A stretch of DNA of 64,000 nucleotides from an uncultured Bacteroidales bacterium (GTDB taxonomy: Bacteria > Bacteroidota > Bacteroidia > Bacteroidales > UBA932). Within the stretch, counting starts at the first letter, position 1; every line of letters begins with the position of its first letter. Positions 6,418 to 9,235 of the stretch are shown one piece after another. The DNA lies in contig CALUPB010000004.1 in the NCBI GenBank assembly GCA_944322585.1, forward strand, positions 62,001-126,000, in the 5' to 3' direction. The notes beneath the pieces are model-generated. The model saw nothing but the letters and a program-made list of their open reading frames with translations. It made no database searches and had not been told where the DNA came from. The translations under genes and the position numbers were made by a program.

Positions 6418-7362
6418 TTATCCGGGCATGTCGGTTGCAAGACACTGGTGTGCCCGGATAAATTCTTCAGCTTCGTCAAGCGAGGAGATTTTACCTACAT
6501 CCATCAGGTCAAGATGCCCGGGCACATAGCCGTCAATCCTCTGCGAAGCGCACATGTCGATATAGAAATCGGTAATGGAGAATTTATATGGAGTCCCCTT
6601 TCCGGAGGCCTGTGGCATAGAGGCGACATTGGCTCCCGAAAAGGGAAGGGGCCCGGGTACGGGAAGGATCGCCGAATGCCACAGGCCTCCGGAAAGGGAT
6701 TCCGCATATTGTTCCAACAGGGGAAAAATCCTGTCGGAAATGAGATGGATGCCGGAAAAGGCATAGCCCGACACTGCCGGCATACCCGGGAGCAGAAGAT
6801 TATCATGCCGGGCATCTGCCCCGACAATGGCATTACCTCCTTCGACATAAGCTTTTCCGTCTCCGGCATACGGACTCCGTATCTCACCCGTAGAGACATT
6901 CGTCCAGCCTGCCATATGCATTCCATTGTCGAACAGAAGATAGCGGGATGTCTGTCTCCTGCTGACGAGCAGGGTCGCCAGGGCATCGGAAGCCGCCGAT
7001 GCGGCGAATGACTTCAGGTCGACATCCGAAAGGATATCCACGTTATGTACAAGGAAATGTCCCGCCCCCTCCAGCAGACTTTTAGCATGGAGTATTCCGC
7101 CCCCTGTATCCAGAAGCGTGTCTCTCTCATCCGAAAACCGTATCCTGATCCCGAAATCGTGTCTTGACCGGACATACTCCTCGATCATGTCCGCAAAATG
7201 ATGGACATTGATTACGATATCATCGAATCCGGCAGTCTTCAGCCTGTCTATGACAATCTCTATCAGAGGACGGCCCCCCACGGGAACAAGAGCCTTCGGA
7301 ATGGTGTCTGTCAACGGTTTCAGCCTTGTCCCGAGTCCGGCTGCAAATATCATCGCCTTCAT
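6418..7362 (-). CDS. MurU-like sugar-1-phosphate nucleotidyltransferase with an internal inverted repeat
   Basis: Likely converts MurNAc-1-phosphate (or a related sugar-1-phosphate) to UDP-MurNAc in peptidoglycan recycling. The N-terminal FAAGLGTRLKPLT (6-18) and PKALVPVGGRP (22-32) are the NTP-transferase signature; VHNVDILSD (105-113) carries the metal-binding Asp. It is third in the leftward set amgK / rapZ-like / this gene, which is the basis for MurU rather than another substrate. At 314 residues it is about 70 longer than Bacteroidetes relatives as I recall them. Extra loops lie at about 171-198 and 222-258, and the second is encoded by a perfect 23-bp inverted repeat (6596-6618 and 6676-6698). 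All catalytic motifs are intact. Confidence 0.82.
   Translation of the reverse strand: MKAMIFAAGLGTRLKPLTDTIPKALVPVGGRPLIEIVIDRLKTAGFDDIVINVHHFADMIEEYVRSRHDFGIRIRFSDERDTLLDTGGGILHAKSLLEGAGHFLVHNVDILSDVDLKSFAASAASDALATLLVSRRQTSRYLLFDNGMHMAGWTNVSTGEIRSPYAGDGKAYVEGGNAIVGADARHDNLLLPGMPAVSGYAFSGIHLISDRIFPLLEQYAESLSGGLWHSAILPVPGPLPFSGANVASMPQASGKGTPYKFSITDFYIDMCASQRIDGYVPGHLDLMDVGKISSLDEAEEFIRAHQCLATDMPG
6596..6698. repeat. Perfect 23-bp inverted repeat around a 57-bp spacer, within the murU-like gene
   Basis: The arm at 6596-6618 is the exact reverse complement of the arm at 6676-6698; pairing stops on both outer and inner sides. The 57-bp spacer is 19 codons long and in register with the reading frame. 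Both the present and the inverted spacer read without a stop in the gene's frame. The arms encode LSGGLWH (223-229) and MPQASGKG (249-256). Confidence 0.9.
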
Positions 7363-7407: not shown

Positions 7408-7914
7408 TCAATCCCTCCTGCTGCCACACACTGCTCGAGTGTCAGTCGGAAATCCTTTCACTGAAGCTCCTGCATCACCGGACAGAATATTACATGTAAC
7501 GCCCTGCTCCCTGTGCGTCAGGACGATCCTGATATCCCGGCCGAATACGGAAGCAAGATGACGCGCCAAACTCTCCGCGCAATAGACGGAGCGGTGCTGT
7601 CCGCCGGTACATCCGAAACAGACGGAAAGATGCGTGAACCCGCGGTCCATGAAACGCCTGACATGAGGATCGACAAGACCGTACACGTTTTCGAGGAAGC
7701 GGAACACTCCCCCTTCCTGCTCAAGGAATTCGATGACCTCGGTGTCCATTCCCGTCATATCCCTGTATCTCTCATATTTCCCGGGATTTTCCAACGCCCG
7801 GCAGTCGAAGACATAACCGCCTCCGTTTCCGCTGCTGTCCCAGGGTATTCCTTTTCTGTATGAAAAACTGGTTATCTCTACCGTCAGTTTTCCGTCATCC
7901 ATATTATCATTCAT
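7408..7914 (-). CDS. RapZ C-terminal-domain protein
   Basis: Stand-alone version of the C-terminal domain of RapZ (168 residues). In enterobacteria RapZ binds GlcN6P and controls GlmS through small RNAs. The marks of that domain are FSYRKGIP (17-24), FDCR (36-39) and GCTGGQHRSV (101-110). The N-terminal Walker kinase domain of enteric RapZ is absent. In Bacteroides, as I recall, this domain is fused to the C-terminus of an AmgK-type kinase; here amgK is separate and a 127-bp repeat element lies between. The ATG at 7914 is followed by MNDNMDDGK before the conserved part. It probably links amino-sugar level to wall synthesis; the exact role in Bacteroidetes is unproven. Confidence 0.85.
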   Translation of the reverse strand: MNDNMDDGKLTVEITSFSYRKGIPWDSSGNGGGYVFDCRALENPGKYERYRDMTGMDTEVIEFLEQEGGVFRFLENVYGLVDPHVRRFMDRGFTHLSVCFGCTGGQHRSVYCAESLARHLASVFGRDIRIVLTHREQGVTCNILSGDAGASVKGFPTDTRAVCGSRRD

Positions 7915-7956
7915 TCCGTATCTGAAATTTTTCGAAAATTCCGTATATATTTTCCG

Positions 7957-8083
7957 AATGAGGTTGACCCAGAAGGAGGAATTTCAAGGCTTGCGAAAAT
8001 GAGAAAACCATAGTGTACTGTCGTACATGAGGATTTTCGAAGCAAGCGTAACGCAGAAATTACCCTTTTGAGTCGACCTCATT
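7957..8083. mobile_element. 127-bp MITE-like element with terminal inverted repeats
   Basis: The left end (from 7957, AATGAGGTTGACC) and the right end (to 8083, GGTCGACCTCATT) form an imperfect inverted repeat of about 28 bp. Inside it CTTGCGAAAAT and ATTTTCGAAGCAAG pair imperfectly, and GTAC-TGTC-GTAC forms a small central hairpin. No open frame of note is inside. The element supplies the last eight codons and the stop of amgK. No target duplication is evident and no second copy was found in the window. Confidence 0.7.
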
Positions 8084-9235
8084 TACCTGTCCCTCCGCTG
8101 CAAAGGAAAAGCGACTGTCATCTGCAATGGCCGCAAGCACCTCTGACAGATACGGATACGCCGACATAGACTCCCTTGGCAATTCCCTGACATTCGCCAC
8201 TGCATACGGAATGCTTTCGAGGAAATGCCGTTTCCGCTCGAAATATCCCCTCAAACCGTATGCCCCGAGCACCTGCAGGGTACGGAGCAGGACGAACAGT
8301 TTCAGTTCATCCCTGAAACCGGCCCCGTCCACCGGACAGTACCTGCGCAACGAGTCCAGATACACCGATATGAGTTCCTCTTTCAGTGCAGGAGGATAAC
8401 ACGCCTTTGCCTGCCATACGAAAGATGCCACATCATAATGCACCGGACCGCGACGGCCTCCCTGAAAGTCGATAAAATACGGCAGACCGCCGGACAGCAT
8501 CACGTTCCTCGCCTGGAAATCCCTGTACATAAAGCCTTTGCACCCGACAGAAAGCAAATCGTCCGCAAGAGCCTCGAAATCATCTTCCAGAAGCATTTCA
8601 TCGAAATGCATTCCGGTGACTTTCAGAAAACAGTATTTGAAATAATTCAGGTCGAACATTATGGAACGCCTGTCGAATTCCGGGACAGGGCAGACGGTTC
8701 CGAAGTCCAGACTCTCCGCCCCGAGCATCTGGATTTCCGGCAAAGCAGCCATAGCTCCGGCAAGAAGCCGTCTTTCGTCTGCGGAATATGCCTCCGTCAA
8801 TGTTGTCTCCCGCTCCATGCCCGGTCGTCCGGCATGGGACATGTCCTCCGTCCGCATGCCAGACTGCACCGGACATCGGACAGTTTTACCGACACCGCAA
8901 CCGGAACCTGCCATTGCAACGGAAGCACGTGCCCGGCCCTCAGCCACTGCATCGTACAGGCTGACCGTTCCGAGATCCTGCTGCAGATAACGGCTCCTGT
9001 CATCACTGACCGCATAGACTTCGGGCACCCGTATGCCTTTTGCAAGCAGATGTGCGCCTATCGACAGGAAAGCCTCATTTTCCTTCCTGTCCTCTCCTGC
9101 CACGCCGACAGCGGAATATCCGCCCCCCGAAAGACGCGAATAGCACCGGTTGCTCCCGGAACCGTTGATAAGAGTACATTCCGCCGCCTCAACGCCGAAA
9201 TGCGCAAGAAACATCGAAGCCAGAACTTTATCCAT
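8060..9235 (-). CDS. AmgK-like amino-sugar anomeric kinase (aminoglycoside phosphotransferase fold)
   Basis: Likely phosphorylates MurNAc/GlcNAc at the anomeric position in cell-wall recycling, making substrate for the MurU-like enzyme two genes downstream. The phosphotransferase loop YRDFQARN begins at residue 237 and the metal-binding DFQGGRRGP at 256. The opening NGSGSNRCYSRL is typical of this subfamily. An unconserved stretch at about 100-150 (in-frame insertion) is rich in G, R and M and carries a short DNA palindrome (8815-8821 with 8831-8837). The last residues, VNEVDSKG, come from the repeat element at 7957-8083, so the native C-terminus has been replaced. Its own -7 box is at 9303-9310. 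Confidence 0.85.
   Translation of the reverse strand: MDKVLASMFLAHFGVEAAECTLINGSGSNRCYSRLSGGGYSAVGVAGEDRKENEAFLSIGAHLLAKGIRVPEVYAVSDDRSRYLQQDLGTVSLYDAVAEGRARASVAMAGSGCGVGKTVRCPVQSGMRTEDMSHAGRPGMERETTLTEAYSADERRLLAGAMAALPEIQMLGAESLDFGTVCPVPEFDRRSIMFDLNYFKYCFLKVTGMHFDEMLLEDDFEALADDLLSVGCKGFMYRDFQARNVMLSGGLPYFIDFQGGRRGPVHYDVASFVWQAKACYPPALKEELISVYLDSLRRYCPVDGAGFRDELKLFVLLRTLQVLGAYGLRGYFERKRHFLESIPYAVANVRELPRESMSAYPYLSEVLAAIADDSRFSFAAEGQVNEVDSKG

Follow-up and report, generated by a model that had tools for sequence, protein, structure and literature searches.

The DNA analyzed here, called the window below, is a 64,000-nucleotide stretch of one contig from an uncultured Bacteroidales bacterium, whose genome (G000) is a 2.87-Mb draft in 33 contigs. 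On the minus strand of the window, the gene for an AmgK-like kinase is followed by that for a RapZ C-terminal domain protein and by that for a MurU-type nucleotidyltransferase; a large hairpin element lies at the junction of the first two. The features are as follows:

8060-9235, minus strand: AmgK-like kinase gene, 391 aa, PF01636 (APH phosphotransferase)
8060-8083, minus strand: final seven kinase codons (NEVDSKG) and TAA, supplied by the element
7960-8080, plus strand: hairpin element, 121 bp, GAGG...CCTC, given on the strand that folds better, which is also that of the covariance model
7957-8083, plus strand: the same element in the 127-bp bounds of an earlier note on this DNA, with AAT/ATT added as three extra paired bases on each side
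7960-7976, plus strand: left outer arm P1, pairing with 8064-8080 (fold, covarying helix)
8064-8080, plus strand: right outer arm P1, pairing with 7960-7976 (fold, covarying helix)
8013-8028, plus strand: apical hairpin GUGUAC-UGUC-GUACAU (fold), flanked by the most conserved internal loop
7915-7956, minus strand: 42 nt from the element to the ATG, 14 codons open in the RapZ frame, probably a remnant of an interdomain linker
7408-7914, minus strand: RapZ C-terminal domain gene, 168 aa, PF22740
6418-7362, minus strand: MurU-type nucleotidyltransferase gene (murU), PF00483

The gene names given in the earlier note were borne out at the level of domains, with PF22740 in the frame at 7408-7914 and PF01636 in that at 8060-9235; the name AmgK is one that we assume for the kinase from the adjoining nucleotidyltransferase (PF00483) and from its presumed function in cell-wall recycling. 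The RapZ domain was 54-71% identical to that of relatives over most of its length in the main matches of 72 of 74 genomes, the lowest identities being 54-55% and the partial match of one genome lying above this range. Since this similarity has been kept, the separate RapZ-domain piece is probably still in use.

The sequence and coordinates of the element were as the earlier note had described them, and its paired ends of about 28 bp are complementary at 20 of 28 positions in an ungapped comparison, a value found at this place alone among all 63,873 segments of 127 bp in the 64 kb. The runner-up was the segment 13978-14104, with 18 or 19 of 28 positions. The unit common to the copies is 7960-8080 and not 7957-8083: the AAT (7957-7959) and ATT (8081-8083) lengthen the palindrome at this locus and are absent as a family feature from other copies. 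The 121-bp element is an imperfect palindrome that folds into one long rod (-46.5 kcal/mol on the plus strand, -38.8 on the minus strand), and it was matched with 133 bits (at 7954-8086, with 6-nt flanks) by R2, a second covariance model built from 60 copies, exclusively from Bacteroidales, and trained without ERIC.

The element supplies the TAA of the kinase gene, as had been proposed, together with seven codons, not eight, in the 127-bp bounds. When 127 bp are excised, the frame is open across the 14 codons into the ATG at 7914; this argument from the frame is weak by itself, as the earlier note had cautioned, because 121 and 124 bp are also 1 modulo 3. That a frameshift could join the two products into a fusion was considered as well and is unlikely: each of the two frames, that of the kinase and that of RapZ, reaches a stop within the element, so that a single frameshift would not yield the fusion.

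We then asked how the two domains are arranged in relatives. The RapZ domain was detected in 75 of 101 genomes of the genus, the own genome included, and in 70 of the other 74 the frame that contains it is 462 aa or longer (judged by frame length); the remaining four frames are shorter and each touches a contig end. In 15 of the 74 rows one stop was read through, and the nine of these loci that were fetched all translate as a fusion. Translation of the fetched loci showed kinase and RapZ C-terminal domain in one stop-free frame in 29 of 29 cases (one cut by the contig), and the kinase frames of the 35 other element-carrying genomes of the genus, seven of which also belong to the 74-genome set, measure 426-533 aa. 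Thus, where the element is missing at this site, relatives have kinase and RapZ domain in a single unbroken frame, which favors the earlier note's proposal; a split without the element was not found among the 74 genomes of the genus with a RapZ domain. At the level of the order, the frame reaches 466 aa or more in 63 of the 68 other genomes (in three via read-through stops); in four of the rest it measures 138-165 aa, and in the last it runs into the end of its contig. As the relatives are fused, the fusion is ancestral, and the split, at whose very position the element lies, is derived in the lineage of the window. The linker between the domains varies in length and sequence among the relatives. 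The closest kinase relative found is 66% identical (G393), and no empty site of the same insertion is known in a close relative.

Elsewhere in the order, in different families, the two domains have become separated independently, by a single stop in G640 (L301) and G028 (L377), by a frame change in G662 (L378) and with a longer spacer in G684 (L376). Searched with R2, these four split loci gave no element match, and therefore the gene can split without the element.

Further copies of the element were present in the own genome, where BLAST gave 31 matches at 29 places, the closest being 92% identical across 121 bp; 19 copies were aligned. The copies are dispersed in the genome, which rules out a local or tandem repeat. 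Within the genus, the element occurs in 36 of 400 genomes including the own one (35 of 399 others), six of which have 15 to 35 matches apiece, and it was absent from a separate draw of 24 other genomes of the genus under the same search, so its distribution is patchy. A first covariance model, built from 72 copies, found it in 51 of 249 genomes of the family (own genome included), in 13 of 25 genera, and a genome from another family of the same order gave a match of 95 bits (L009). With the fused state in relatives and these further copies, both outcomes that the earlier note had set as checks speak for its reading. In the phylum, R2 matched 40 of 395 genomes including the own one, in 7 of 171 genera; these matches fall mostly in one family of another class, and many are weak. 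A GNA/GA loop beside the apical stem was present in all 14 correctly excised loci of the 16 distant loci on which this count drew (L341 and L345 were left out). With a locus-to-genome table entered by hand, 26 of 50 copies were found to have their nearest core in the genome in which they themselves lie, where shuffling gave 7.5. Mean core identity was nevertheless 0.824 within genomes and higher, 0.863, between genomes, partly because the copies of other genomes had been chosen as best BLAST hits. Longer variants (179-180 nt), in which one side of the rod has gained an additional hairpin, were seen in G449 (L260, L261), and three consecutive element matches, i.e., tandem copies, in G585 (L263, 756-1133).

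The structure of the element is conserved, and its arms vary. Across 60 copies and the 46 pairs of the rod, 93.5% of cells are paired compared to 78.5% after shuffling, in an alignment that was fitted to the structure, which favors the pairing score; double-change cells numbered 345 against 78, and 38 of the 46 pairs have changes on both sides, figures that count sequences and not independent events. When the partners were shifted against each other by one to three columns, pairing fell to 36-55%. The earlier, unfitted alignment of 72 copies pointed the same way, with 90.5 vs. 86.2% of cells paired and 151 vs. 47 double changes. In the apical hairpin, both partners of a pair are changed in 27 of 60 copies, with pairing kept in all, and double changes were also seen in the inner helices. 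The outer arm of L164 (G399) is perfectly paired and yet quite unlike that of the other copies of its genome. The internal loops are what stays constant in sequence: C-AAG-GC with GC-AGA-G, GNA with GA beside the apical stem, and AACGC. Of the 23 copies folded, 20 have their better fold on the plus strand. Pairing as a one-strand RNA only is nevertheless not favored, as G-U cells (72) are barely above A-C cells (57) when two fixed G-U pairs are excluded; the counts agree better with a structure that is maintained in DNA or on both strands.

The earlier note had called the element MITE-like, with an imperfect terminal inverted repeat of about 28 bp. The palindromic ends and the many copies agree with this description; fixed terminal repeats, a target duplication and a transposase partner did not emerge. 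Terminal inverted repeats of constant sequence were not found among the copies, whose arms vary and still pair. Abutting direct repeats of at least 2 bp flank three of 71 copies, compared to a shuffled mean of about 6.4, so that target-site duplications are not in excess at these borders, also with slack allowed. No transposase with matching ends was found, no neighbor gene was shared among the neighborhoods of the copies (two larger clusters consisted mostly of frames overlapping the element itself), and no larger autonomous element with the same ends was seen in 20 stretches from G000, G084 and G399. The last of these results is a weak point, because draft assemblies often miss insertion sequences, and five of the 20 stretches (L151, L152, L154, L160, L162) lack a second arm and may be chance matches. 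The element copies tried gave no Rfam match above the gathering score, and an integron attC site appears unlikely in view of the boxes that such sites carry.

As regards the genomic setting, a sample of 72 copies was dispersed and mostly located between mechanically called frames, with convergent neighbors in 25 cases, same-strand neighbors in 28 and divergent neighbors in 10 (p about 0.017 for convergent against divergent), and with the remaining nine copies inside such a frame or at the end of a contig. Left flanks are A-rich and right flanks T-rich. We compared by eye the sites of 16 copies of G084, a genome of the same genus, with three relatives, in 20 stretches at 11 sites. Five stretches carry a short form of the element (four of these were confirmed with R2), nine have another hairpin at the same place, two are without a visible hairpin and four do not align; beside the site, L329 and L330 contain an additional full element. 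Seven of the nine replacement hairpins were folded (-11 to -33 kcal/mol), and one belongs to the family of a second large hairpin of the window (6596-6698). Elements and ordinary gene-end hairpins thus seem to replace one another. The short forms lack the center, and the missing part is bounded by direct repeats (TCAAG or CGAAG, for example), as hairpin slippage would give. Such forms were noted in G000 (L052, L054, L146-L149) and in G084 (L306, L308, L310, L311, L165), some of them about 45-75 bp long.

The second large hairpin is unrelated to the element and lies inside the murU frame, which remains open across it. Its arms are a perfect 23 bp (6596-6618 and 6676-6698), and the fold of 6590-6705 reaches -78.9 kcal/mol. 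It corresponds to 27-40 residues that are absent in the relatives shown (39 of 56 aligned). A hairpin with the same core but different arms is present in L338 (G045) and in L176; no Rfam match was obtained for the hairpin of the window. Rickettsia palindromic elements likewise leave the frame of their host gene open.

At this locus, then, an element from a family of conserved structure, dispersed in genomes of gut Bacteroidales, coincides with the split of a gene that is fused in relatives. We consider it likely that an ERIC-type hairpin of 121 bp inserted into one ancestral gene, in the unconserved linker that joined its kinase domain to its RapZ C-terminal domain, and made two genes of it. 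Upon such an entry, the minus-strand end of the element would have provided NEVDSKG and the TAA and so terminated the kinase; the leftover linker would have become a leader, with the ATG at 7914 serving as the start of the RapZ C-terminal domain gene, and both halves would have stayed in use. The element itself was probably moved in trans, by a factor that would read the folded hairpin and its loops and not fixed ends; we know of no enzyme that moves ERIC-type repeats. The earlier note's proposal of a split by insertion holds as to a derived split with the element exactly there; insertion as its cause is likely and not proven, given the element-free fission seen elsewhere in the order. The order of events could be the reverse, a stop or a frame change in the linker having split the gene and the hairpin having entered the new spacer later, perhaps to be kept as an intercistronic hairpin. 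The four relatives in the order that are split without an element match favor this sequence of events, as does the location of most of the 72 sampled copies between genes, with few in a called frame. We nevertheless hold it to be unlikely, as the stop codon of the kinase is itself inside the element and no element-free split was found in the genus, where the frame has the size of a fusion in 70 of 74 genomes and touches a contig end in the remaining four.

The nature of the element allows further readings. It might not be mobile by itself and might be a gene-end hairpin, either a two-way terminator or a structure of the mRNA 3′ end, which was spread by copying, selected for its structure and here caught in a gene. 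The excess of convergent over divergent neighbors, the A-rich left and T-rich right flanks and the relatives with another hairpin at the G084 sites (nine of 20 stretches by eye) are all in keeping with this, and we regard it as doubtful, since the nearest neighbors in the same genome and the 15-35 matches in six genomes require a copying process anyway, and a plain terminator needs no conserved loops. An origin as a classical MITE, that is, a deletion derivative of an insertion sequence on whose terminal inverted repeats of about 28 bp a DDE transposase would act, would account for the palindromic ends, the length of about 120 bp, the many copies and the patchy distribution. We think it improbable in view of the flanking direct repeats, which are not in excess, of arms that were replaced wholesale and still pair, as in L164, of two-sided changes that extend to the inner helices, and of the lack of a larger same-ended element in the 20 stretches from three genomes, the last being limited by the draft assemblies. 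Mobilization as a REP/BIME-like element by a Y1 (RAYT-type) transposase appears very improbable. A hairpin with conserved mismatches and no target duplication would suit it, the own genome has three weak Y1 matches, and a Y1 match adjoins two copies, at about 250 bp (L282) and about 1.1 kb (L288). The presence of a Y1 transposase, however, does not track the element: a match was found in 10 of 18 element-positive genomes and in 14 of 20 chosen element-negative ones, and the eight positive genomes without a match include G068, which is 98% complete and has no Y1 candidate.

The locus is a clear example of a repeat that lies just where a two-domain gene has newly come apart, and so bears on how genes undergo fission. 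The relatives with different stems and the same loops show which parts are recognized, and the covariance model can be used to hunt for the mobilizing partner and for further members.

Among known repeats, the small size, palindromic form, dispersal and lack of coding capacity of the element recall the Correia/NEMIS MITEs, from which it differs in that no excess border duplication, fixed terminal sequence or related insertion sequence was found for it. The Xanthomonas sRNA sX9 (RF02228) scored 31-37 bits, below its gathering score of 44, at the core of six of 15 distant loci; it lies on the strand opposite to the covariance model and had no match on the Bacteroidales copies tried.

A closer likeness is to ERIC (enterobacterial repetitive intergenic consensus, 127 bp), described in PMC2267715 as one long stem-loop; ERIC copies lie mainly between genes, in regions that are transcribed. 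The element shares with it the length, the tens of dispersed copies, the long stem-loop and the mostly intergenic location, and differs in a sequence conserved in fragments only, in other outer arms and in a host from the Bacteroidota. R2 matched an E. coli ERIC (cusF-cusC intergenic region) across the whole model with 26.7 bits, against 4.9 on the other strand, a moderate match at one ERIC locus under a rough calibration with rough E-values. As controls, other hairpins in 15 kb of E. coli reached at most 10.2 bits with strands much alike, and the second large hairpin of the window gave no match at E up to 1. The element is, as we see it, too unlike the ERIC consensus sequence for plain alignment, and the covariance model alone joins the two; we therefore call it ERIC-type and not ERIC.

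The core of a distant copy (L362) matched E. coli chromosomes over about 58 nt in 5375 of 5426 genomes, mostly at 80-90% identity, and also Klebsiella, Salmonella, Yersinia, Aeromonas and Comamonas records. The E. coli repeat, which is intergenic, is presumably BoxC, a name that we assign from size and kind and not from sequence. R2 gave 42.3 bits for the Comamonas copy, 30.4 for one E. coli copy and 24.7 for the K-12 copy (center only), which lies between glrK and qseG (L371, 4578-4612). This K-12 copy adjoins the glmY-glrK-qseG-glrR cluster, and a link to the RapZ theme is probably coincidence; according to an abstract, the cluster is tied to amino-sugar control via GlmY. BoxC of E. coli is listed with 56 bp and 32 copies in the excerpts of PMC2267715, whereas the repeat matched here, when queried with its K-12 copy, has 4 places per genome at the median. 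BRE, in the excerpts of PMC3110155, occurs in Bordetella, where it measures 75-91 bp, and in other Betaproteobacteria, mostly between genes, with some copies within coding sequence and also in tandem. The Comamonas copy is of BRE size, and our guess, from this description and not from sequence, is that it is a BRE.

Titles and abstract openings in the literature named neither the Bacteroidales element nor a common family of ERIC, BoxC and BRE. From the R2 scores on ERIC and its relatives compared to the control hairpins, we place the element with ERIC; the two are probably hairpins of one kind, as probably are BoxC and BRE, and common descent would be one reading of this likeness. As we read it, the element is apparently a Bacteroidota branch of an ERIC-type hairpin superfamily. 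We tentatively suggest, as a possibility short of an even chance, that ERIC, the BoxC-like repeats, the BRE-like copy of Comamonas and the Bacteroidota elements form one ancient superfamily of selfish hairpins, marked by architecture instead of sequence, each being a rod of helices with conserved purine-rich internal loops that would be moved in trans by a protein reading the folded loops, the outer stem doubling as a gene-end hairpin, so that genomes might swap terminators for elements and a rare landing in a gene would draw a new gene boundary.
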